64,000 bases of DNA from Tomocerus qinae. Taxonomy: Eukaryota; Arthropoda; Collembola; Entomobryomorpha; Tomoceridae. This document shows, piece by piece, positions 23,821 through 64,000 of the stretch. How positions within the stretch are numbered: the stretch's first letter is position 1; every line of letters begins with the position of its first letter. The notes under the pieces are model-generated. The model was not told where the DNA came from. It saw only the letters and a program-made list of their open reading frames with translations, and searched no databases. Position numbers and translations under genes: made by a program. The DNA lies in NCBI GenBank assembly GCA_020055645.1, contig CM034546.1, positions 140,079,875-140,143,874 of the forward strand, written 5' to 3'.

Positions 23821-23979
23821 TATAATAATAATGACTTAATTGAGACGATATGGCCTTTGGCCTTTACATTTTTTTACAAAGAATTATTTAAATGTGTTTA
23901 AATTGTAAAGTCGCGGAAACTAATCTGTGTTATATTTGTTATAGATAGAGTTATATTGTACTTACCCCTTTTTACTAAT

Positions 23980-25001
23980 AGACCTTATTCATATTAGCAT
24001 CAGCGCCACTGCTGTTAGGTATAACGAGAACGGTGAAAGTTACTCAAACGGGTAAATGAATGAATAGTAGTCGTTCGCACACCGGTGGTATACCGTCACA
24101 CAACGTGACACACCCAAACAAATACATACAATACAGATTCATTCTAAGTGAAGTTGAAATAGAAGAAACCGTATAGCTAGGCCTCCTTTTTGTTGGGTTT
24201 TTTATAAAGTATACTTGGAAATTCTAAGACGTTAATTAAAATGAGTTGCAGAAATAATAAAATAAATAATAAAATTGTAATACGGCTCTGCTTCGTTTTT
24301 AATAAAATTTTCAGGTTTTCAAGGATTTAAAACGAATTGCTAATTTTTGCAAAATTATATTTCAAAATTTAATACATGGATAAGCCTATTTTCAAGTATA
24401 TTTTATAAAATATCAACATCAAAAAATAATTAGTTATCTATCAATAATAATATCATTTAAGCTAATCAAGATTTCCTGTATTCTATTCCTATTATTTCAT
24501 TATATGAGAATCTAGAGTCAGAGTCAATTAGTTTGAAAACAACCTTAGCTACTTGCTAATTACGAGATATTTTAATTTAAAATTCCTCGCTATCCCCTTT
24601 GAAAAAATTGGCACAGCACTCTATATTGCAAAGAATTTAAATAGGATAGTCCTGTCAAAAATTTGACATCTTCATCTCTAGTTTAAGATATATGAGTCTG
24701 AAATTTTGAAAAAGCGAATAAATAAACATTTATGAAAAATAAAATACAAAAATCGGAACCTAGTCTACAATGTCATACACATTAAGGAAAAAATAATAAA
24801 ATGAATCAAAAAACACTATACCTCGCTTCATTAACCTCTTTGTCCAATTCTTTCAAAATTCAATCAAGAATACTATTTAAGGGCCTGTTATATGTAGCAA
24901 ATGTTTACTGTAAAAATTTTCTGAAATAAAACAAATTAAAATCTAATGATTTTGCTCTTCGTAATTTTGGTGGCCCTTAAAAGGGCCTTTGGGTTACGAA
25001 G
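23980..25001 (+). repeat. Left TIR (1,022 bp)
   Basis: Reverse complement of 30151-31172, the same length, with rare differences (for example ggaaaaaataat near 24786 against ggaagaaataat in the partner). The inner end is a near-palindrome, CTTCGTAA...TTACGAAG with GGCCCTTTTAAGGGCC between. Confidence 0.93.
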
Positions 25002-25056
25002 TTTAGTAAGAAATAATATTATGCCATAATTTCAATTTTTGGTGGTGTCATCGTCA

Positions 25057-27014
25057 TTATAGTGATGCAAAGGATGGAAGTAAATCTTGAAACCATATAT
25101 CTGTCAACTTTTGCAGCTCCTGTGTTATGTCTTCTCTCGTTACATGAACGTATTCTATTTCCGCGGGTGGCACAAACACCACTAGATAGCTGTCATCGAT
25201 GTTGCAAATGTTCATTTGCCCTTGCATCTGTAAGTAGACATTATTGTTCTTGTTGATGAGTAATTCCCCATTTTCATATGTAACAAAGAAATCTGGTCCC
25301 CTTGCTCTTTCCTTTATTGAGATCTTCTGATTATATATTGCATATGGACATTTGACTTCTAATAGATACAATTTGTCTTGATCCAGAATGCAGTAGTCGG
25401 GGGACACTCCCAAAAACGGTATCGATGGATTAATGCACAGGCCCAAATTGGATGTTTTACAATCAGAGGAAAAGACATTCTGTATCTCCAAGAATTTTTT
25501 AATGGCTACTGCTTCAAACATTAATCCGTGTCGCATAGCTATGGTACTATAACTAGACATTAACTGCTTCGCCACTGTGTATGGATTTGTGGTTTTCCTT
25601 AAGTGACAATACCTTCTAAAATTAGATGCGGTAATCCGAAATTGGCGGAGCCGTGTCCATTCAGTTGATTTGCTCTGTAATCTGGTTTTTTCCTCTATTT
25701 TTTTAGCGTCTTTAGTAGTCACAGCAATTGCATTTCCCCAAAACTCTTCATAGGTAGTAATTTTATCTTCATATTTTTGTTTGTAATCCAAAGTAGCACT
25801 GAAGTCCTTCATGTTCAAAAAAATTTGTTCCGCCACAGAGATGTACAATGATTCTGAAAGAATAGAATAGTAATTTAAATCTTAAATACAAATAATGGAA
25901 AATGTTAAAAACGGTCTGAGAAACCACGGTGTTTTAGGTTTTACACTTATATTATATTACCTTTAGGACAAACTGGAGTATAGCCTGAAGTTTTCCAAGT
26001 TTCTAGTATGGGCAAGCTTATATTCTTCAAGGATTCTGAAACTGCTCTTAATTTATCAGCTGTTACATACTTGGTGAGATTTAGCCCACTAGAAAACGCT
26101 TTGACATATTTTCCCAATTCTTCTTTGTTTTTGTCTTTGCTCCATTTAACAATTTTTGTGTCTTGAAATAAAATTGCATTGTCGGAATCAGGCTTGCGTA
26201 CATGCCATACTTGAGGTTGAGAAGTACAAGACACAGTTCCAGGAAACGTAGATTCATTCAAGAGAACTGCATCACGAATATAGTATAGACCTGCTACTGC
26301 ATGCTTACATTCTCCATTTACACCAGCAGGGCATTGACACTTCATCCAGTAAACGTCTTCGGACTCCAAGCAAATGGAAACATTAACACGGTACACCTTA
26401 TTTTTCATTGCAGCTTTGACATCAAGAGCATAATATAAGTATGTGGGTAAAGCAGATCGGTTAGATTGGCATTGAAGAATACTTCCACTCTTCCATAACT
26501 TGTACCCGTCAGTTGCTATTTTTGCTGACAATTGTGACACATTTTTCAGAAGTGACTCAGGAAATTCTGACAAGCTTACTTCATTGGTCCACCCCTCCTT
26601 CGGAGTTACTTTTCCCTGCCATCCTGACACTCCTAAGGAGTAAATCAAAAGACGTCTTACATTTATCTTCAAATTGTCATTATACTACATTGCTTGTAAT
26701 GCTTTAGTTTAACCTACACATTTTATAACGACTTTGTTATACGTAACCATTAAAATATATCTCATCAACATCAACATTTTAAATTTTATTATCATACCTA
26801 ACTGAAAGTTTGCAGGATTTAATTTGCAAAGTTCTGTGCATCCACTACATATCCACGGTATTTCATCTGTTAATTCTTCTTCCACCAATCCTGCACAGGT
26901 AAAATGGAACCATTCTTCACAACTGTCACACTGAACCATTGGTTTTGAAGGGTCATTAGGTTGCCCACACTTGCAAAATAGTCGGTCCTCCGACGTCAGT
27001 TTTTTCTTAGGCAT
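25057..27014 (-). CDS. PHD-SWIM-YqaJ nuclease protein (transposon-encoded)
   Basis: Three exons: 27014-26798, 26632-25961 and 25853-25057, joined at GT/AG sites in phase 1 and open throughout, about 561 residues. Exon 1 holds a PHD finger (C-x-C-x12-C-x2-C-x4-H-x2-C-x15-C-x2-C, residues 14-59), a chromatin-reader type zinc module. Exon 2 holds a SWIM finger, CQCPAGVNGECKH. Exon 3 holds a YqaJ-like exonuclease: FRITAS, then GLMFE, SPDY, the catalytic LLEVKCP (E-x-K) and LQMQGQM, so all PD-(D/E)xK residues are present. In ISL2EU elements a YqaJ protein accompanies the transposase; its likely role is end processing or strand resection during transposition (inference). It shares a 458-bp divergent promoter region with the transposase gene. 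The exon 2 donor position is certain to about 1 bp. Confidence 0.9.
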
Positions 27015-27472
27015 TATTGCTGTAAGTCGGTCAAAAGCTCAAAATGCGAATGAGGAGGTAAAAAGTCAAGTTAACGAGTGAATATTAGCAATAGAAAATG
27101 TGATGAATGATATTACTGAGATATTAGTATGGCTAACGAAATTCAAAATCCTGAATACACACATTTACTTTGTAGCATGGAAAAAATAGAGAGCTTCAAG
27201 TGTTACCTTCAAGTAACGTAATTGCTTTTTGACTGCACTGTGCACTGTGCTTTGTGCACTGTACACTGTGTTCTGTCATGCTGCGCACAATATGCGGTGT
27301 TGCTACAAATAACGCTACTGCGCATCTAAATCAGCTTTAGCAGAGTAACAAACTCCATTGCATTTGGTCGACTCCTAATTCGTATTGTGCATTTCAGCTT
27401 GCTGTGTTTCAATTTATCTTGATCTTTTATCTTTGGCAAAATATCTAAAGATATTTCTGATAACATTTTGTT
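27015..27472. promoter_or_regulatory. Divergent promoter region of the transposon
   Basis: 458 bp between the two start codons. It contains a cluster of tgcactg/gcactgt motifs at 27234-27270 (five imperfect repeats), and a small hairpin gttaccttcaagtaac just upstream. A THAP-domain transposase could bind such repeats to regulate both genes; this is inference. Confidence 0.45.
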
Positions 27473-27957
27473 ATGACCCGTTCAAAGCATTGTTGTGTGG
27501 ATGATTGCCACAACTGTATTCCAACGTCAGCATTGTATCCCTTACCGTCAAAAAAAACACAAGGTATACGTCTTAATAAATGGATTGAAGTTCTGACAAA
27601 AGATAAAGACAAGCCGTTTGTTCCTACGGATCATAAGAAAATATGTGGCGACCATTTTGATGACTCTTCCTTCAAATTCGTTAAAACGAAAAAAGTTCTA
27701 ACATCTGGTAAGCTTTTGATTTACAATATCCATAAATTTGTATTTATACTTCCTTTTGTATGCTGAAATTCGTATTGAATGTTGATATAGTTTAGACGAA
27801 AGTGACTATATTGTATCTCCACTTGTAAATCTTAAATGCAACATATTTACACATCTTAGATGCAATTCCAAAATATGTTCCTTGGATCACCCAAGACGAT
27901 GACAGCGCTGCATATTCTGTTGATAGTGAAACTGTGGAAATTGGCATGCCAGCAAAT

Positions 27958-28107
27958 GAAATCTCAGATGGTGAAATACCAGAAGATGAAATACTAGATG
28001 ATGAAATACCAGATGATGAAATACCAGATGATGAAATACCAGAAGATGAAATACCAGAAGATGAAATACCAGAAGATGAAATACCAAATGATGAAATACC
28101 AGATGTG
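27958..28107 (+). repeat. 15-bp coding repeat (Glu-Ile-Pro-Asp/Glu-Asp)
   Basis: About nine copies of gaaataccagatgat or gaaataccagaagat keep the frame of the transposase gene and encode an acidic pentapeptide linker between the THAP and DDE domains. Copy number of such a repeat probably varies between element copies. Confidence 0.9.
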
Positions 28108-29273
28108 ATCCATACTTCTTATGAAGCTAATTGTTCTCCTCGAAGTGCTAACCCTATTGTGGAGTCTCCAATTTCTACTAGAAGATTGGTGAAAGCACCA
28201 GAAGCACCTATAATATCAAATGTTGGCAAAATCTTGGCATCAGAAAAAACAGTTAGGCGTTATACGGGATTAGCTAACAAGCAAATATTTATTTCACTTT
28301 TCGATCTACTTTCCCCTCCAATGAAGAAGGTTGGACTTGTTGGCGTAACTAAAAAAACCATCATTATGCCAAACCCGGACACTCCGACAATTAAAAGAGG
28401 TAGACGCAGAAACTATCACTGGAGCAAGAATTTATGATGACACTTATTCGGCTTCGAAGAAAAGTGGCAGAAGATATTTTAGCAGACATCTTTTGTATTA
28501 GTCAACCTACTTGCAGTCGAATATTGAATACATGGATTATATGCATGAGCAATATTTTAAGACTTACACCTATATGGCCCACAAGAGAAGAAATTGCATC
28601 CAGATTGCCTGAAAAATTTAAATCATTTCCTAATTTACGTGCAATTATCGACTGCACTGAATTGGAAATAGAAACACCTTCAGATATAGCTAGCCAGAAA
28701 GCAACTTTTAGCAACTATAAACAACGTAACACTGTTAAGGGTTTAGTTGTAATCAGTCCAGATGAACAAGTCACTTTTGTCTCTCAGTTGTATGGTGGCT
28801 CGTCTTCTGACAAAAAGGTTGTCCTTCATAGTGATATGTTAAACCTACTGCAACCTGGTGATGAAATAATGGCTGATCGAGGTTTTACTCTTGTTCAAGA
28901 GTGTAGTCAAAAAGGCCTTAATCTAATCATTCCTGACTTTTTGAACAAGGCTATACAGCTAACAGACGAAGAAGTTAAAAGGACTAGAGCAATAGCTAAA
29001 CTTCGAATTTTAGTAGAAAATAAAATTGGAGCCATTAAATATTTCCGTATATTGCATCAAAAAATACCACTGACCATGCACCCCATGTTGGATCATATTT
29101 GGACAGTTTGCAACTACTTAAGTAATTTTATGGTTCCTTGTCCAATTAACGAAGATGAAGACCTAGATAGCGCTGCAACAGTCTCAGAAGTTTCAGAAGT
29201 CTCCGGTATGTACAGAAAAGTCTATCTGGATGAAAGTGTAATTGAAAAATTTCTTGAACTTTCGTAAGCATAT

Positions 29274-30073
29274 TCCTCAATGGACATTGAAACTATAGGA
29301 TACTTGAGTGGATTTTCGGTAAAAAAATTTTATCTTTTATACCAATGTAAAACTATTGCTTATTATTTTTATTTCATGATTTATACTTGTAGAACGAGGA
29401 TGGTGAATTTGAAATTACTACGGTAATAGTGCCGAAGCAGGATGGGACGTCAAATAGTTGTTCAATTTCAGATTATGCTGAACTTGTAAATGAGATTAAC
29501 AAGGTAAAGATTATTTTCTGAATTTAAGTAAAATACTTAACTGTTTCTTGAATTAAATTAAATACAACGTTTTTAAAAATGGTAGGATGAAAATATGATC
29601 GTACTTGGATGGATTCATACACACCCATCTCAAACAGCGTTTCTTTCCTCGCCAGATTTGCACACACAATGGGGATTGCAACATGTGCTAAAGGAGGCAG
29701 TGGCTGTTGTATGTTCAATAAAATATAACCAGTAAGTGCAAGAATCATTTCTCCCGCATTTTACATCCATTATAGATACACTTAAAAAAGTTTGTTTTTA
29801 TCAGGAATAAGATATACACTATTACTAGTCCTCAAGGAATGCAAGCCATATTGGAATGTGAAGAAGAAGAGACATTTCACAATCACCCTGAACTGGATGT
29901 AAGTCATTTTTGAACTAAGTGACATAATAATCAATAATCAAAACTAATGGATAATCGTATGTTCGCTGTTATTAAAAGATTTTAATTTTGACTAGGTTCC
30001 ACTTTTTCAAGAGGCTGCACATGTTATAATGATATCAGGAATGCATACTAATGCCATTGATCTGCGCGAGTAA
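29274..30073 (+). CDS. AMSH-like JAMM metalloprotease part (five exons)
   Basis: Listed separately because the in-frame stop at 29265-29267 leaves a Met at 29280 in the same frame that could start a separate product. Exons from 29280: to 29318, then 29393-29503, 29586-29731, 29805-29898 and 29996-30073, about 155 residues. It resembles the catalytic half of AMSH, a zinc-dependent Lys63-specific deubiquitinase of endosomes. The JAMM motif [17 protein letters not shown] matches AMSH very closely, and the insertion carrying the second zinc (Cys...FHNH) typical of AMSH is kept. A product starting at Met29280 would lack the first helix of the fold, encoded before the stop, so full activity from it is doubtful. 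Confidence 0.85.
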
Positions 30074-30150
30074 TCAAAATGAGTGTTTTACATCGGTGCC
30101 CGTTTATCTTATCTCGATGTATTCCTGGCATAACCTTTACAACGTCTGAC

Positions 30151-31172
30151 CTTCGTAACCCAAAGGCCCTTTTAAGGGCCACCAAAATTACGAAGAGCAA
30201 AATCATTAGATTTTAATTTGTTTTATTTCAGAAAATTTTTACAGTAAACATTTGCTACATATAACAGGCCCTTAAATAGTATTCTTGATTGAATTTTGAA
30301 AGAATTGGACAAAGAGGTTAATGAAGCGAGGTATAGTGTTTTTTGATTCATTTTATTATTTCTTCCTTAATGTGTATGACATTGTAGACTAGGTTCCGAT
30401 TTTTGTATTTTATTTTTTATAAATGTTTATTTATTCGCTTTTTCAAAATTTCAGACTCATATATCTTAAACTAGAGATGAAGATGTCAAATTTTTGACAG
30501 GACTATCCTATTTAAATTCTTTGCAATATAGAGTGCTGTGCCAATTTTTTCAAAGGGGATAGCGAGGAATTTTAAATTAAAATATCTCGTAATTAGCAAG
30601 TAGCTAAGGTTGTTTTCAAACTAATTGACTCTGACTCTAGATTCTCATATAATGAAATAATAGGAATAGAATACAGGAAATCTTGATTAGCTTAAATGAT
30701 ATTATTATTGATAGATAACTAATTATTTTTTGATGTTGATATTTTATAAAATATACTTGAAAATAGGCTTATCCATGTATTAAATTTTGAAATATAATTT
30801 TGCAAAAATTAGCAATTCGTTTTAAATCCTTGAAAACCTGAAAATTTTATTAAAAACGAAGCAGAGCCGTATTACAATTTTATTATTTATTTTATTATTT
30901 CTGCAACTCATTTTAATTAACGTCTTAGAATTTCCAAGTATACTTTATAAAAAACCCAACAAAAAGGAGGCCTAGCTATACGGTTTCTTCTATTTCAACT
31001 TCACTTAGAATGAATCTGTATTGTATGTATTTGTTTGGGTGTGTCACGTTGTGTGACGGTATACCACCGGTGTGCGAACGACTACTATTCATTCATTTAC
31101 CCGTTTGAGTAACTTTCACCGTTCTCGTTATACCTAACAGCAGTGGCGCTGATGCTAATATGAATAAGGTCT
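30151..31172 (-). repeat. Right TIR (1,022 bp)
   Basis: Inverted partner of 23980-25001. The end reads GCTAATATGAATAAGGTCT followed by the duplicated AT. Confidence 0.93.
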
Positions 31173-32270
31173 ATTACACTTACTTCTTACTAAGTTATAT
31201 TAAAGATATTTTCTATAGGTATAATATATTATAACATTACAACAGTACCTCTTATCTCATCTAACTACTTTGTTTACACTCACTATAGACAAAAGTCTAA
31301 GTCAGCAAGATACGTTGATCTTACTGAATTCACACCTTTCCAGAACAAATACAACGATTTAGCATCCTAGATGGTATATGTTAATGTAATGATCAGTAGT
31401 ATGTGGAGTATGGGGTAGATGCCTAACATGTTTGTAATGTTGGCAATGATGCATACCGGAAAGTACATTCTCTATTTTATTAAGGTTACATAATTTGCAT
31501 AATCCTTCGTTTTCCAGGTGATACATATATTGAATGGCCCCTATTTATATGTTTTTGCCTGTGGGAGTGACATGATTGATATCTATTTTCAGTTGAAACA
31601 CGATTCTAGTCATAGCCCATGGGTTCAAGTCAAGGTAATTTTGTTTTAAAATGCGTGCCTTTGACAATGTGTTTGAGCTTGTTACTGCCTTTCATGCAGC
31701 TTATATCGAAGACCATCAATTTTTCTTTAATTAGTTTTGCTGTGTCTTGTATCTCAGAATTAGCAAACAGAGAAAAGTAGAGCTGGCGTTGATGACAGTA
31801 TGAGAAGGGACGTGTGGGGAGAGAATTCTTCCATGTCGTGGAAATACTAGGTGTTAATTGCTGAGTTCGAATTGTCTCGAATTAATTTTTAGTTTGCAAA
31901 TAACTGACACCACACTGTGAGAGTAAATGAATTGGTTAACCGAGTAGCCCGTAAGAACTTAATCGCCGTAGGCTACAATACAGATTGTGAAAGTATGAGA
32001 AGTCTGCCTTATTATTATTAATTTTGTTTAAGTTTTGACTGAATTTGGGGTGAATCGATAATTTGTTTGCTGGATAGTTGACTTGATTATTTTGGGAATT
32101 TAGAGAGTTAAAGTTAAAATGGGGAAATATGAGAATGCCAATGAAAAATAATGTTGTGAATTGAAAGTATGTAATTGCTATGGTTAATGAGAAATCCTAA
32201 TTTGCATTGTTGAAAATGGATTAATTATATGGTGTTAGGAGGAAGTGCATATAGTTTGTAAGGAAAGTAC
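31173..32270. other. No gene seen
   Basis: Right flank of the transposon. AT-rich with no coding pattern. Confidence 0.4.
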
Positions 32271-57330: not shown

Positions 57331-58470
57331 ATTATTATTATAATATAGTATATGTGTGTACTACTCTAAACCAGACCCTCTAAACCGACCATTAAACTAC
57401 ATGAGCATATAGAAAATAATTAGGACGAGTCATACGAATGTTAATGCAGGTATTCACATTATCTTTCTTACAAAAAAATTGCCTCAGAAGACGATTTAGT
57501 TTGTTTTATCTATCAGAGCAGACTCTTTACTCAGGGGAGGTTCATTGTTGACGGCTTGACCATTTGGTATTCAGTCTAGAGTCAAGCTAAATAACTTTGT
57601 TTTCGTAAAATATCGACTAACTCTGCCTGCCTGGCTTTCTCGAAAACAAATTTTGCTTAATTTAATTGCATAGCTAGTATGGATGCAGAGTTTTAGGGGA
57701 CTACTCTCTTTGCTTGGCGATACACTTTTAACACTAATCCCGCAAGCTCATCCGCCTCTCACCGGACGCCAGTGTCATCTATTATAAATAACGGCGTGTC
57801 ATAAAAATAAATATTTAATTGAAATAAATCAATCGTGGTCACAAACTTTATTCACCCATTCACTAGGACCACTAATGACTAAGACCCGTTTTTGTTTTTT
57901 GACTAAGAACAATTTGGCCAGTAAAGTATGCCAAAAAGCGAATTAAAAAAAACGTTCTCTGCCAAAAGGTGTATTTACCTATTTAGGGTTGATTCCTTGA
58001 AATTGTTTCTAGAATATTATTATTCGAAAAATATTATTTTTCGTATCATTCAGATTCGGTAAAGAAAATATATAATGTTTGGTCTTCAGTACTTTCCTTA
58101 TTTTATCAATTTCAAATAATTCCTAGTAGAAACAAATTTAATTTGAAAACGATCATTTTCTTAATTCACTATTTTATTAGTTTATTTTGGTATTACATTT
58201 TTTCGGTTAACCATCATTTCTCCTTAATTCTATCCTGAAGAAAGAAAATTCAGGATTTTTGAAAGGTTGACATCAAATTAAAAACGACATATAATTAGTT
58301 TAATCAGAGTTCTTTTTTAGCCGGCTTTATTACATTTTGCCCACCCACCCTGGCAAAAGGGGCAAAAATACCTAAAATTCAAAAATTTGCGCCAATTTTT
58401 ACACCAATTACTGTTATTTAGCCCCATTTTTACTTTGCAAGCCTTAGCAAGCCTAAATAAGCACACCCCA
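57331..58470. other. No gene; partial match to TTTTA-flanked repeat
   Basis: ctttactcaggggaggttca and tgacggcttg at about 57525-57565 resemble the 3' end of the repeats at 36295 and 38968. The remainder is AT-rich, with no coding seen. Confidence 0.4.
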
Positions 58471-58475
58471 GAGTG

Positions 58476-58585
58476 CAAGGCATGAAAAAGGTTGCCTTTT
58501 TGCTAGCAAAAAGGCAAAAAGCCACCTTTTTGCCTTTTTGCTACCTTTTTGCATTTTTGTGCTTTTTGCCTTTTTGGAGTAGTAA
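58476..58585 (-). mobile_element. hAT-type MITE end adjoining the satellite
   Basis: CAAGGCATGAAAAAGG here matches the complement of the right end of the MITE at 3929-4522 (CAAGTCATGAAAAAG). The match continues through tttttgtgctttttgccttt to ttggagtag. The 19-bp satellite starts immediately after. The far end of the element is not in the window. Confidence 0.75.
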
Positions 58586-58589
58586 CCTT

Positions 58590-61500
58590 TTGAATCATTC
58601 GAAACTTTTCGAATCGTTCGAAACCTTTCGAAACGTTCGAAACCTTTCGAATCGTTCGAAACCTTTCGAATCGTTCGAAACCTTTCGAATCGTTCGTAAC
58701 CTTTCAATTCGTTCGTAACCTTACGAATCAATCGAAACCTTTTGAATCGATAGAAACCTTTCGAATCGATAGAAACCTTTCGAATCGATAGAAACCCTTC
58801 GAATCGATAGAAACCTTTCGAATCGTTCGAAACCATTTGAATCGTTCGAAACCTTTCGAATCGTTCGAAACCTTTCCAATCGTTCGAACCTTTCGAATCG
58901 TTCGAAACCTTTCGAATCGTTCGAAACCTTTCGAATCGTTCGAAACCTTTCGAATCGTTCGAAACCTTTCGAATCGTTCGAAACCTTTCGAATCGTTCGA
59001 AACCTTTCGAATCGTTCGAAATTTTTCGAATCGTTCGAAATTTTTCGAATCGTTCGAAAATTTTCGAATCGTTAGAAACCTTTCGAATCGTTCGAAACCT
59101 TTCGAATCGTTCGAAACCTTTCGAATCGTTCGAAACCATTTGAATCGTTCGAAACCTTTCGAATCGTTCGAGACCTTTCGGATCGTTTTGATCCTTTCGA
59201 ATCGTTAGAAACCTTTCGAATCGTTCGGAACCTTTCGAATCGTTCGAAACCTTTCGAATCGTTCAAAACCTTTCGAATCGTTCGAAACCTTTCGAATCGT
59301 TCGAAACCTTTCGAATCGTTCGAAACCTTTCGAATCGTTCGAAACCTTTCGAATCGTTCGAAACCTTTCGAATCGTTCGAAACCTTTCGAATCGTTCAAA
59401 ACCTTTCGAATCGTTCGAAACCTTTCGAATCGTTCGAAACCTTTCGAATCGTTCGAAACCTTTCGAATCGTTCGAAACCTTTCGAATCGTTCGAAACCTT
59501 TTGAATCGATAGAAACCTTTCGAATCGATAGAAACCTTTCGAATCGTTCGAAACCATTTGAATTGTTCGAAAGCTTTCGAATCGTTCGAAACCTTTCGAA
59601 TCGTTCGAAACCTTTCGAATCGTTCGAAACCTTTTGAATCGATAGAAACCTTTCGAATCGATATAAACCTTTCGAATCGTTCGAAACCTTTCGAATCGTT
59701 CGAAACCTTTCGAATCGTTCGAAACCTTTCGAATCGTTCGAAACCTTTTGAATCGATAGAAACCTTTCGAATCGATAGAAACCTTTCGAATCGTTCGAAA
59801 CCTTTCGAATCGTTCGAAACCTTTCGAATCGTTCGAAACCTTTCGAATCGTTCGAAACCTTTCGAATCGTTCGAAACCTTTTGAATCGATAGAAACCTTT
59901 CGAATCGTTCGAAACCTTTCGAATCGTTCGAAACCCTTTGATTTGTTCGAAACCTTTCGAATCGTTCGAAACCTTTTGATTTGTTCGAAACCTTTCGAAT
60001 CGATAGAAACCTTTCGAATCGATAGAAACCTTTCGAATCGTTCGAAACCTTTCGAATCGTTCGAAACCTTTCGAATTGTTCGAAACCTTTCGAATCGTTC
60101 GAAACCTTTCGAATCGTTCGAAACCTTTCGAATCGTTCGAAACCTTTCGAATGGTTCGAAACCTTTCGAATCTTTTGAGACCTGTCGAATCGTTTGAAAC
60201 TTTTTTAATCATTCAAAACCTTTCGAATCATTCGAAACCTTTCGAATCATTCGAAACCTTTCGAATAATTCGAAACCTTTCGAATCGTTCGAAACCTTTC
60301 GAATCGTTCGAAACCTTTTGAATCGATAGAAACCTTTCGAATCGTTCGAAACCATTTGAATTGTTCGAAAGCTTTCGAATCGTTCGAAACCTTTCGAATC
60401 GTTCGAAACCTTTTGAATCGATAGAAACCTTTCGAATCGATATAAACCTTTCGAATCGTTCGAAACCTTTCGAATCGTTCGAAACCTTTCGAATCGTTCG
60501 AAACCTTTCGAATCGTTCGAAACCTTTTGAATCGATAAAAACCTTTCGAATCGATAGAAACCTTTCGAATCGTTCGAAACCTTTCGAATCGTTCGAAACC
60601 TTTCGAATCGTTCGAAACCTTTCGAATCGTTCGAAACCTTTCGAATCGTTCGAAACCTTTTGAATCGATAGAAACCTTTCGAATCGATATAAACCTTTCG
60701 AATCGTTCGAAACCCTTTGATTTGTTCGAAACCTTTCGAATCGTTCGAAACCTTTTGATTTGTTGGAAACCTTTCGAATCGATAGAAACCTTTCGAATCG
60801 ATAGAAACCTTTCGAATCGTTCGAAACCTTTCGAATTGTTCGAAACCTTTCGAATCGTTCGAAACCTTTCGAATCGTTCGAAACCTTTCGAATCGATAGA
60901 AACCTTTCGAATCGATAGAAACCTTTCGAATCGTTCGAAACCTTTCGAATTGTTCGAAACCTTTCGAATCGTTCGAAACCTTTCGAATCGTTCGAAACCT
61001 TTCGAATCGTTCGAAACCTTTCGAATCGTTCGAAACCTTTCGAATCGTTCGAAACCTTTCGAATCGTTCGAAACCTTTCGAATCGTTCGAAACCTTTTGA
61101 ATCGATAGAAACCTTTCGAATCGTTCGAAACCTTTCGAATCGTTCGAAACCTTTCGAATCGTTCGAAACCTTTCGAATCGTTCGAAACCTTTTGAATCGA
61201 TAGAAACCTTTCGAATCGATATAAACCTTTCGAATCGTTCGAAACCTTTCGAATCGTTCGAAACCTTTCGAATCGTTCGAAACCTTTCGAATCGTTCGAA
61301 ACCTTTTGAATCGATAGAAACCTTTCGAATCGATAGAAACCTTTCGAATCGTTCGAAACCTTTCGAATCGTTCGAAACCATTTGAATCGTTCGAAACCTT
61401 TCGAATCGTTCGAGACCTTTCGGATCGTTTTGATCCTTTCGAATCGTTAGAAACCTTTCGAATCGTTCGGAACCTTTCGAATCGTTCGAAACCTTTCGAA

Positions 61501-64000
61501 TCGTTCAAAACATTTCGAATCGTTCGAAACCTTTTGAATCGTTCAAAACCTTTTGATTTGTTCGAAACCTTTTGAATCGTTCGGTACCTTTTGATTTGTT
61601 CGAAACCTTTCGAATCGTTTGAAACCTTTCGAATCGTTCAAAACCTTTCGAATCGTTCGAAACCTTTCGAATCGTTCGAAACCTTTCGAATCGTTCGAAA
61701 CCTTTCGAATCGTTCGAAACCTTTCGAATCGTTCGAAACCTTTTGAATCGATAGAAACCTTTCGAATCGATAGAAACCTTTCGAATCGTTCGAAACCATT
61801 TGAATTGTTCGAAAGCTTTCGAATCGTTCGAAACCTTTCGAATCGTTCGAAACCTTTCGAATCGTTCGAAACCTTTTGAATCGATAGAAACCTTTCGAAT
61901 CGATATAAACCTTTCGAATCGTTCGAAACCTTTCGAATCGTTCGAAACCTTTCGAATCGTTCGAAACCTTTCGAATCGTTCGAAACCTTTTGAATCGATA
62001 GAAACCTTTCGAATCGATAGAAACCTTTCGAATCGTTCGAAACCTTTCGAATCGTTCGAAACCTTTCGAATCGTTCGAAACCTTTCGAATCGTTCGAAAC
62101 CTTTTGAATCGATAGAAACCTTTCGAATCGTTCGAAACCTTTCGAATCGTTCGAAACCCTTTGATTTGTTCGAAACCTTTCGAATCGTTCGAAACCTTTT
62201 GATTTGTTCGAAACCTTTCGAATCGATAGAAACCTTTCGAATCGATAGAAACCTTTCGAATCGTTCGAAACCTTTCGAATCGTTCGAAACCTTTCGAATC
62301 GTTCGAAACCTTTCGAATCGTTCGAAACCTTTCGAATCGTTCGAAACCTTTCGAATCGTTCGAAACCTTTCGAATCGTTCGAAACCTTTCGAATCGTTCG
62401 AAACCTTTCGAATCGTTCGAAACCTTTCGAATCGTTCGAAACCTTTCGAATCGTTCGAAACCTTTCGAATCGTTCGAAACCTTTCGAATCGTTCGAAACC
62501 TTTCGAATCGTTCGAAACCTTTCGAATCGTTCGAAACCTTTTGAATCGATAGAAACCTTTCGAATCGATAGAAACCTTTCGAATCGTTCGAAACCATTTG
62601 AATTGTTCGAAAGCTTTCGAATCGTTCGAAACCTTTCGAATCGTTCGAAACCTTTCGAATCGTTCGAAACCTTTCGAATCGTTCGAAACCTTTCGAATCG
62701 TTCGAAACCTTTCGAATCGTTCGAAACCTTTCGAATCGTTCGAAACCTTTCGAATCGTTCGAAACCTTTTGAATCGATAGAAACCTTTCGAATCGATAGA
62801 AACCTTTCGAATCGTTCGAAACCTTTCGAATCGTTCGAAACCTTTCGAATCGTTCGAAACCTTTCGAATCGTTCGAAACCTTTCGAATCGTTCGAAACCT
62901 TTTGAATCGATAGAAACCTTTCGAATCGATATAAACCTTTCGAATCGTTCGAAACCTTTCGAATCGTTCGAAACCTTTCGAATCGTTCGAAACCTTTCGA
63001 ATCGTTCGAAACCTTTCGAATCGATAGAAACCTTTCGAATCGTTCGAAACCTTTCGAATCGTTCGAAACCTTTCGAATCGTTCGAAACCTTTCGAATCGT
63101 TCGAAACCTTTCGAATCGTTCGAAACCTTTCGAATCGTTCGAAACCTTTCGAATCGTTCGAAACCTTTCGAATCGTTCGAAACCTTTCGAATCGTTCGAA
63201 ACCTTTTGAATCGATAGAAACCTTTCGAATCGATAGAAACCTTTCGAATCGTTCGAAACCTTTCGAATCGTTCGAAACCTTTCGAATCGTTCGAAACCTT
63301 TCGAATCGTTCGAAACCTTTCGAATCGTTCGAAACCTTTCGAATCGTTCGAAACCTTTCGAATCGTTCGAAACCTTTCGAATCGTTCGAAACCTTTCGAA
63401 TCGTTCGAAACCTTTTGAATCGATAGAAACCATTTGAATTGTTCGAAAGCTTTCGAATCGTTCGAAACCTTTCGAATCGTTCGAAACCTTTCGAATCGTT
63501 TGAAACCTTTTGAATCGATAGAAACCTTTCGAATCGATATAAACCTTTCGAATCGTTCGAAACCTTTCGAATCGTTCGAAACCTTTCGAATCGTTCGAAA
63601 CCTTTCGAATCGTTCGAAACCTTTTGAATCGATAGAAACCTTTCGAATCGATAGAAACCTTTCGAATCGTTCGAAACCTTTCGAATCGTTCGAAACCTTT
63701 CGAATCGTTCGAAACCTTTCGAATCGTTCGAAACCTTTCGAATCGTTCGAAACCTTTTGAATCGATAGAAACCTTTCGAATCGTTCGAAACCTTTCGAAT
63801 CGTTCGAAACCATTTGAATCGGTCGAAACCTTTCGAATCGTTCGAGACCTTTCGATTCATTCGAAACCTTTCGAATCGTTAGAAATCTTTCAAATCGTTC
63901 AAAACCTTTCGAATCGTTCGAAACCTTTCGAATCGTTCGAAACCTTTCGAATCGTTCGAAACCTTTCGAATCGTTCGAAACCTTTCGAATCGTTCGAAAC
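58590..64000. repeat. 19-bp satellite array (at least 5.4 kb)
   Basis: The unit gaatcgttcgaaacctttc, 19 bp, about 285 copies, continues past the window end. The main variant gaatcgatagaaacctttc occurs in recurrent pairs, with rarer marked variants (catttgaattgttcgaaagc, gatttgttcg, cggatcgttttgatcc). Marked variants recur at exact multiples of 19 bp, so the array has few or no indels and higher-order structure. The unit holds TTCGAA twice and may itself be a 9+10 bp duplication. It has no stop in any minus frame and 19 is 1 mod 3, so each frame cycles through the same 19-residue repeat for hundreds of codons. This is not a protein gene. Confidence 0.95.

Follow-up and report, generated by a model that had tools for sequence, protein, structure and literature searches.

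An ISL2EU-type transposon in Tomocerus qinae with an AMSH-type domain behind its transposase and histone-type stem-loops behind both of its genes

Introduction

As set out in the available part of PMC4482050, the ISL2EU group of PHIS (Harbinger-like) transposons is recognized by a THAP-HTH-DDE transposase, a YqaJ exonuclease and an AT target-site duplication in A/AT/T. Galileo and other long-TIR THAP transposons likewise combine a THAP transposase with long terminal inverted repeats (TIRs), but Galileo belongs to the P-element superfamily, and the portion of PMC3688188 accessible to us mentions neither JAMM nor YqaJ. Transposons carrying a deubiquitinase domain have been described among Helitrons, in which VTD or OTU domains occur, and the accessible text of that study proposes that the Helitron-borne VTD deubiquitinases protect transposition proteins from degradation (PMC9741609). 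Helitrons differ from the element described here in their rolling-circle RepHel protein and in using cysteine proteases of other folds, whereas our locus pairs a DDE transposase with an AMSH-type zinc metalloprotease. Lys63 specificity is described for another JAMM enzyme, BRCC36, which belongs to the BRCA1-A complex that edits ubiquitin at DNA repair foci (PMC7692841, excerpted text).

A second relevant system is the 3′ end of replication-dependent histone messages. According to the part of PMC2781718 available to us, SLBP and the U7 snRNP act on a stem-loop and a downstream element, with cleavage between the two, and the stem-loop gives histone mRNAs coordinate, replication-coupled regulation. 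The same text states that SLBP had not been implicated in non-histone genes.

Here we analyse a 64,000-nucleotide stretch of Tomocerus qinae DNA (contig CM034546.1), hereafter the window, in which nucleotides 23980-31172 constitute one ISL2EU-type transposon. It resembles ISL2EU in its transposase, its YqaJ exonuclease and its target site, and departs from that group in that its transposase is fused to a JAMM domain, its YqaJ protein also has PHD and SWIM regions, and its genes stand head to head and have 3′ ends of histone type. Our preferred reading, to which we give a probability of roughly 0.6, is that a cut-and-paste transposon of ISL2EU lineage captured, as DNA and with introns included, the catalytic portion of an AMSH gene of its host behind its DDE domain and kept it under selection, and that histone-type 3′ ends confine expression to S phase while the JAMM domain acts at the transposon ends.

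Results

An ISL2EU-type element with long terminal repeats

The transposon is bounded by a left TIR at 23980-25001 (plus strand) and a right TIR at 30151-31172 (minus strand). The original prediction that 1,022-bp TIRs enclose the fusion gene was borne out, with 2 mismatches between the arms. AT duplications lie immediately outside at 23978-23979 (context CTA/AT/AGACC) and 31173-31174 (context GGTCT/AT/T), and the flanks read CTAAT/AGACC...GGTCT/ATTAC, which gives an A/AT/T target. The same duplication was found in a related element, L024, and in 15 of 16 short copies with paired ends (see below); it was not seen for a third element, L025. Pfam recognizes a DDE_Tnp_4-type transposase with THAP and HTH domains and, in the second gene, a YqaJ exonuclease domain, as in ISL2EU. 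The TIRs of the window element (1,022 bp) and of L024 (about 810 bp) fall outside the 6-259 bp given for ISL2EU in the available part of PMC4482050, a range that describes the group and does not define it.

The two genes are divergent, each with its 3′ end at a TIR, and are separated by a 458-bp head-to-head region at 27015-27472. A scan of these regions for E2F-, CHR- and TATA-like motifs found a single CHR-like match in the window and another in L024; no E2F- or TATA-like motif was found in the window, L024 or L025, and no CHR-like motif in L025. Gene 2, on the minus strand, is open in the window and encodes 561 aa in three predicted exons: a PHD finger at 26798-27014 with the start codon at 27014, a C-x-C..C-x-H region at 25961-26632 that we take to be SWIM-type and that has no Pfam match, and the YqaJ exonuclease domain at 25057-25853 with the stop codon at 25057-25059. 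The corresponding YqaJ gene of L025 holds stops.

The transposase-JAMM gene is broken in the window and open at another locus

Gene 1, on the plus strand, encodes in order THAP (35.8 bits), HTH_Tnp_4 (47.8), DDE_Tnp_4 (147.4) and JAB/JAMM (65.7) domains, all above Pfam cut-offs, with an X put at the stop of the JAMM part for scoring. Exon 1 (27473-27707, its end set by reading of the sequence) holds the THAP domain apart from its end, and exon 2 (27860-29318) the end of THAP, the HTH, the DDE core, a linker and the first JAMM segment with the catalytic Glu. The remaining JAMM exons lie at 29393-29503, 29586-29731 (zinc site), 29805-29898 (C..FHNH second-zinc residues) and 29996-30073, the last ending in the stop codon. 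The four introns named beforehand have GT..AG ends exactly where proposed, at 29318/29393, 29503/29586, 29731/29805 and 29898/29996. Between the THAP and DDE parts, at 27956-28105, a 15-bp repeat occurs ten times and encodes acidic EIPDD/EIPED units.

The original prediction also had THAP-DDE running into JAMM as one open block, and this does not hold for the window copy. Between 28404 and 28437 the transposase passes from one frame (27829-28437) to another (28404-29267), and an in-frame TAA at 29265-29267 falls between the first JAMM helix (VIEKFLELS upstream) and the catalytic Glu. Both defects, like the histone-type 3′ ends, had been overlooked; the fusion gene of the window copy is broken. 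An intron (GTAACT..CGCAG) spanning the frame change is possible but unlikely, because it would delete the stretch KRGRRR, whose counterparts KRGRQR and KRGRKR lie inside one open exon in L024 and L025 and are thus coding in these relatives. Splicing around the TAA was rejected on reading the sequence, as the GT at 29264 joins the next exon only out of frame.

A protein search of the 334-Mb genome with the DDE domain returned at least 116 rows (150 of 160 candidates scored), of which 14 form one clade in nine loci, all others being at most 42% identical. Besides the window, the clade comprises L024 (C1:71.81M), L025 (C7:1.193M), L026 (C7:1.207M), L027 (C1:86.10M), L029 (C10:326k) and the decayed loci L032 (C1:134.0M), L028 (C1:28.47M) and L030 (C1:16.30M). 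A search for full-length copies with both parts in one frame, as had been suggested, succeeded in its coding aspect at L025, where gene 1 is open over 693 residues in six predicted exons with five GT-AG introns and one terminal stop, and where Pfam finds THAP, HTH_Tnp_4, DDE_Tnp_4 and JAB in the product; the ends of this copy carry only a 94-bp inverted repeat, outside which its two sides differ. In L024 the reading frame stays open from THAP to the end of the second JAMM exon; an insertion in its JAMM intron 2 leaves the ancestral donor without an in-frame acceptor, and the frame is maintained if the junction is shifted. The DDE domain of L026 contains one stop, and L028 is decayed across the JAMM catalytic site. 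Among the copies examined, none was found whole in both genes.

L025 and L026, with the associated locus L071, lie at C7:1.19-1.21M on a small contig as two near-identical transposon copies in opposite orientation within about 20 kb. They are 99.8% identical over 3,058 nt, and because this identity runs past the stem-loop described next and into the flank, they look like one duplicated insertion.

Histone-type stem-loops behind both genes

The only Rfam matches in the window are two histone 3′ UTR stem-loops (RF00032), one following each gene in the sense direction at the inner end of the TIR there. One lies with its downstream element at 24948-24992 (minus strand), 69 nt after the stop codon of gene 2, and the other at 30160-30204 (plus strand) with a purine-rich U7-type element (GAAGAGC), 91 nt after that of gene 1; both score 39.5 bits (E 4.3e-8). 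L024 and L025 also have RF00032 stem-loops at both ends, and L026 has one behind gene 1 and one behind its PHD-SWIM-YqaJ gene (L071). A complete stem-loop with downstream element was seen at the inner TIR ends of L024, L025, L026, L066 and L071, besides the window.

When the best 75 of 57,408 first-look candidates in the genome were scored, at least 72 exceeded the RF00032 cut-off, eight of them in the window, L024, L025 and L026/L071. As a control, 1 of 14 control genomes gave a match, below the cut-off. The other listed hits fall mostly into a few clusters by position, and 13 of them were inspected; upstream of the stem-loops, L065 reads as what we take to be H2B and L062 as what is presumably H2A. 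The transposon stem-loops match the host histone genes in their core, GGCCCTTTTAAGGGCC, in the ACC flank and in the purine-rich downstream element, which contains AAGAGC or GAGAGC in the transposon as in those genes; the downstream element of L025, ccaaagagcaaaa, is likewise of this kind. The stem-loops start 62-163 nt after the stop codons at the six places measured, and AATAAA occurs in one of these six intervals. Between the TIRs of the window and L024, a 49-nt block covering the stem-loop (90%, E 3e-12) is the only clearly significant match, the next being 13 nt long (E 0.01). SLBP-domain genes are present at two places in the genome. The Rfam model for U7 snRNA had no match anywhere and is uninformative about a host U7.

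No stem-loop was found in the stretches covered for L027-L030 and L032, of which that for L030 reaches past the YqaJ domain and that for L027 lacks YqaJ. From this distribution we conclude that the stem-loop is not universal in the clade, having been gained in, or lost outside, the group formed by the window, L024 and the C7 copies. Because L025 and L026 appear to be one duplicated insertion, the signal rests on three independent lineages, not four.

Histone genes with a stem-loop 3′ end are normally intronless. In the transposon, by contrast, the signal stands behind two intron-containing genes, and their introns may hinder histone-type processing; the open-access literature on introns and histone 3′ ends yielded nothing.

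It is also conceivable, and in our estimate a distinctly minority possibility, that the stem-loop is only a compact 3′-end signal or a DNA hairpin near the transposon ends, uncoupled from S phase. Its place inside the TIRs, where transposases bind, would suit such a role, and in Galileo the long TIRs contain THAP binding sites (PMC3688188, available portion). Conservation, however, extends to the full RNA signal, which lies in sense behind both genes and includes the ACC flank and a purine-rich downstream element spaced as in histone genes. Moreover, the short copies of the family match TIR positions 1-484 at most in the rows scored, short of the stem-loop at about 969-1013, which argues that movement does not need it.

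An AMSH domain captured with its introns and kept under constraint

Among solved structures, the best matches of the JAMM part are human STAMBP, AMSH-LP and Sst2 (E 1e-31 to 8e-29), which are Lys63-specific JAMM deubiquitinases, followed by RPN11-type proteins as the next kind (E 4e-9). The Glu of DIETIG and the H-x-H-x10-D named in the original prediction were recovered, as were the DLHT histidine and C..FHxH, and alignment shows all of these retained in the window, L024, L025 and L026; the catalytic and second-zinc residues are also retained in the aligned part of L027. We take the DLHT His, the Cys and F-H-x-H to be the second-zinc residues of AMSH. By these comparisons the JAMM part is AMSH.

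An ordinary AMSH gene, L031, lies separately in the genome (C1:100.66M). In the window, L025 and L026, the four JAMM introns equal those of L031 in position and phase (0, 0, 2, 0). L024 has three of the four positions in common with it, the second being disturbed, and no acceptor was seen before the fourth JAMM exon of L027. Because the introns match in all four positions and phases, we infer that an AMSH gene was captured as DNA; shared introns are to be expected from capture of a genomic copy and are hard to explain otherwise. Together with JAMM sequence at all nine loci found (see below), they support the proposal that an ISL2EU transposon took up the catalytic domain of a host AMSH. In the host gene, the exon preceding the JAMM domain carries PQFDRNTKP, which resembles the STAM-binding motif. 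In the transposon, this N-terminal part of the host protein is replaced by linkers with THAP and DDE domains. A JAMM tree of seven rows, from which L026 was left out, groups the window with L024 and L025 (100/97) and separates all transposon JAMMs from AMSH with moderate support (77/79).

In comparisons of divergent copies, the transposon JAMMs have pN of 0.28-0.38 against pS of 0.64-0.81, the latter near saturation, and the excess of third-position changes ranges from p = 9e-9 (window/L024) to 5e-3 (window/L027). The duplicates L025 and L026 differ by three JAMM changes, one per codon position, and are uninformative on selection. The DDE, YqaJ and SWIM regions show similar constraint, stricter in the DDE. 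Judged by the third-position excess and by pN below pS, the JAMM domain is under purifying selection and was kept as a protein while the families diverged.

Whether such constraint reflects catalysis bears on a further reading, in which the JAMM part is retained only for binding ubiquitin or other proteins, or is a passenger that the transposon tolerates. Its faster evolution relative to the DDE (50-58% against 64-74% identity among the window, L024 and L025) would fit that account. We nevertheless consider it unlikely, as the third-position excess speaks for constraint on the protein, and the catalytic Glu, the zinc-binding H-x-H-x10-D and the second-zinc residues persist in four copies and in the aligned part of a fifth.

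A recently mobile family in which JAMM recurs

Searching the genome with the outer TIR sequence gave at least 75 rows, including the two arms of the window element (40 of 528 candidates scored), so that a copy with both ends contributes two rows. Among the 73 further rows, 68 are 95-99% identical to the query. Of 20 TIR loci that were cut out, two being the window's own arms, 16 have paired ends, and it is these MITE-type copies that show the AT duplication in 15 cases. By their ends, the short copies are non-autonomous members of the window transposon's family.

An origin of these genes as host genes domesticated from a transposon, in place of a mobile family, would accommodate the open fusion gene of L025 despite its 94-bp inverted repeat, as well as the flank that L025 shares with its duplicate L026. 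The TIRs, the target-site duplications, the many short copies with near-identical ends and the several decayed copies all point the other way and leave domestication improbable.

Copies lacking the MPN exons, which had been named beforehand as evidence against capture, did not turn up among the clade loci found. A JAMM search of the genome returned 15 rows, 14 in eight clade loci and one at the host AMSH gene L031, and at the remaining locus, L029, a profile built without its sequence detected a decayed JAMM exon (E 9e-5). JAMM sequence consequently follows the DDE in the same orientation at nine of the nine loci found. This recurrence, with the placement of both domains between TIRs in the window and L024 and their union in one open gene at L025, rules out an AMSH pseudogene or unrelated host gene that merely neighbours the transposase and was misread as part of it, a reading that the frameshift and stop codon in the window's joined frame might have favoured and that we regard as extremely improbable.

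Four more distant relatives (L067-L070, 30-36% DDE identity) gave no credible JAMM, with one chance-level row at L070 (E 0.67) and none by profile. A YqaJ match is present in three of them, L067, L069 and L070; in these ISL2EU-like elements the DDE and YqaJ genes converge, the opposite of the divergent arrangement in the JAMM family. In IMG/VR, the DDE query found one weak match (L001, 28% over 58 residues), and nothing was found for JAMM or YqaJ; GTDB contigs gave no relatives for the DDE query.

Discussion

Returning to the preferred reading, that of an ISL2EU-lineage transposon with a captured AMSH domain and histone-like expression, we can outline how its parts might work together. SLBP and the U7 snRNP would process both transposon transcripts to non-polyadenylated, histone-like ends, and the transposase and YqaJ exonuclease would then be produced chiefly during S phase, or translated from messages stored in germ cells and early embryos. 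The THAP domain would take the fused deubiquitinase to the transposon ends, where the JAMM domain could trim Lys63-linked ubiquitin, its substrate being either the transposase complex or break-signalling proteins at the site of excision. With sister chromatids at hand for repair during this trimming, copy number would rise. We consider it likely that transposition is confined to S phase and that a Lys63 deubiquitinase is directed to the transposon ends. Only tentatively, and with rather less confidence than in the reading as a whole, would we extend this to a self-contained S-phase transposon, in which one element brings together a transposase fused to a deubiquitinase, a PHD-SWIM-YqaJ exonuclease and, duplicated in its TIRs, a captured histone 3′ signal through which both genes are expressed like replication-dependent histones. 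This would time transposition to DNA replication, with the fused AMSH domain erasing Lys63 ubiquitin at the element's own breaks.

In the open-access literature, the matches listed included no JAMM or AMSH domain in ISL2EU or any other DDE transposon, in line with the earlier statement that no described ISL2EU with an MPN+ domain was known, and no histone stem-loop in a transposon. If the self-contained S-phase reading is true, the element would have, to our knowledge, the first DDE transposase that contains its own deubiquitinase, and we know of no other non-histone genes for which SLBP/U7 3′ ends have been demonstrated; the histone-type 3′ signal, should it prove functional, would represent a new kind.

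The element is a naturally occurring, genetically linked example of a transposon with possible control over ubiquitin where it acts, and it also appears to have co-opted the histone 3′-end pathway. Should this be correct, the coupling of cut-and-paste elements to replication and their handling of the DNA-break response would become directly testable, a DNA-targeted Lys63 deubiquitinase would be at hand, and the view that SLBP serves histone messages only would be contradicted.

Within the window, nucleotides 58456-63999 consist of several kb of tandem repeats of the FERFERFRTIRKVSNDSKG type, open in many frames on both strands; these are low-complexity sequence and not genes. Elsewhere in the genome, L054 (C1:32.51M), L056 (C2:335k) and L057 (C4:1.15M) have stem-loops that score above the Rfam cut-off, and reading several hundred bases upstream of them revealed no histone frame. 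Related repeated sequence flanks the stem-loops of L054 and L056, which suggests that another repeat may carry the histone signal.
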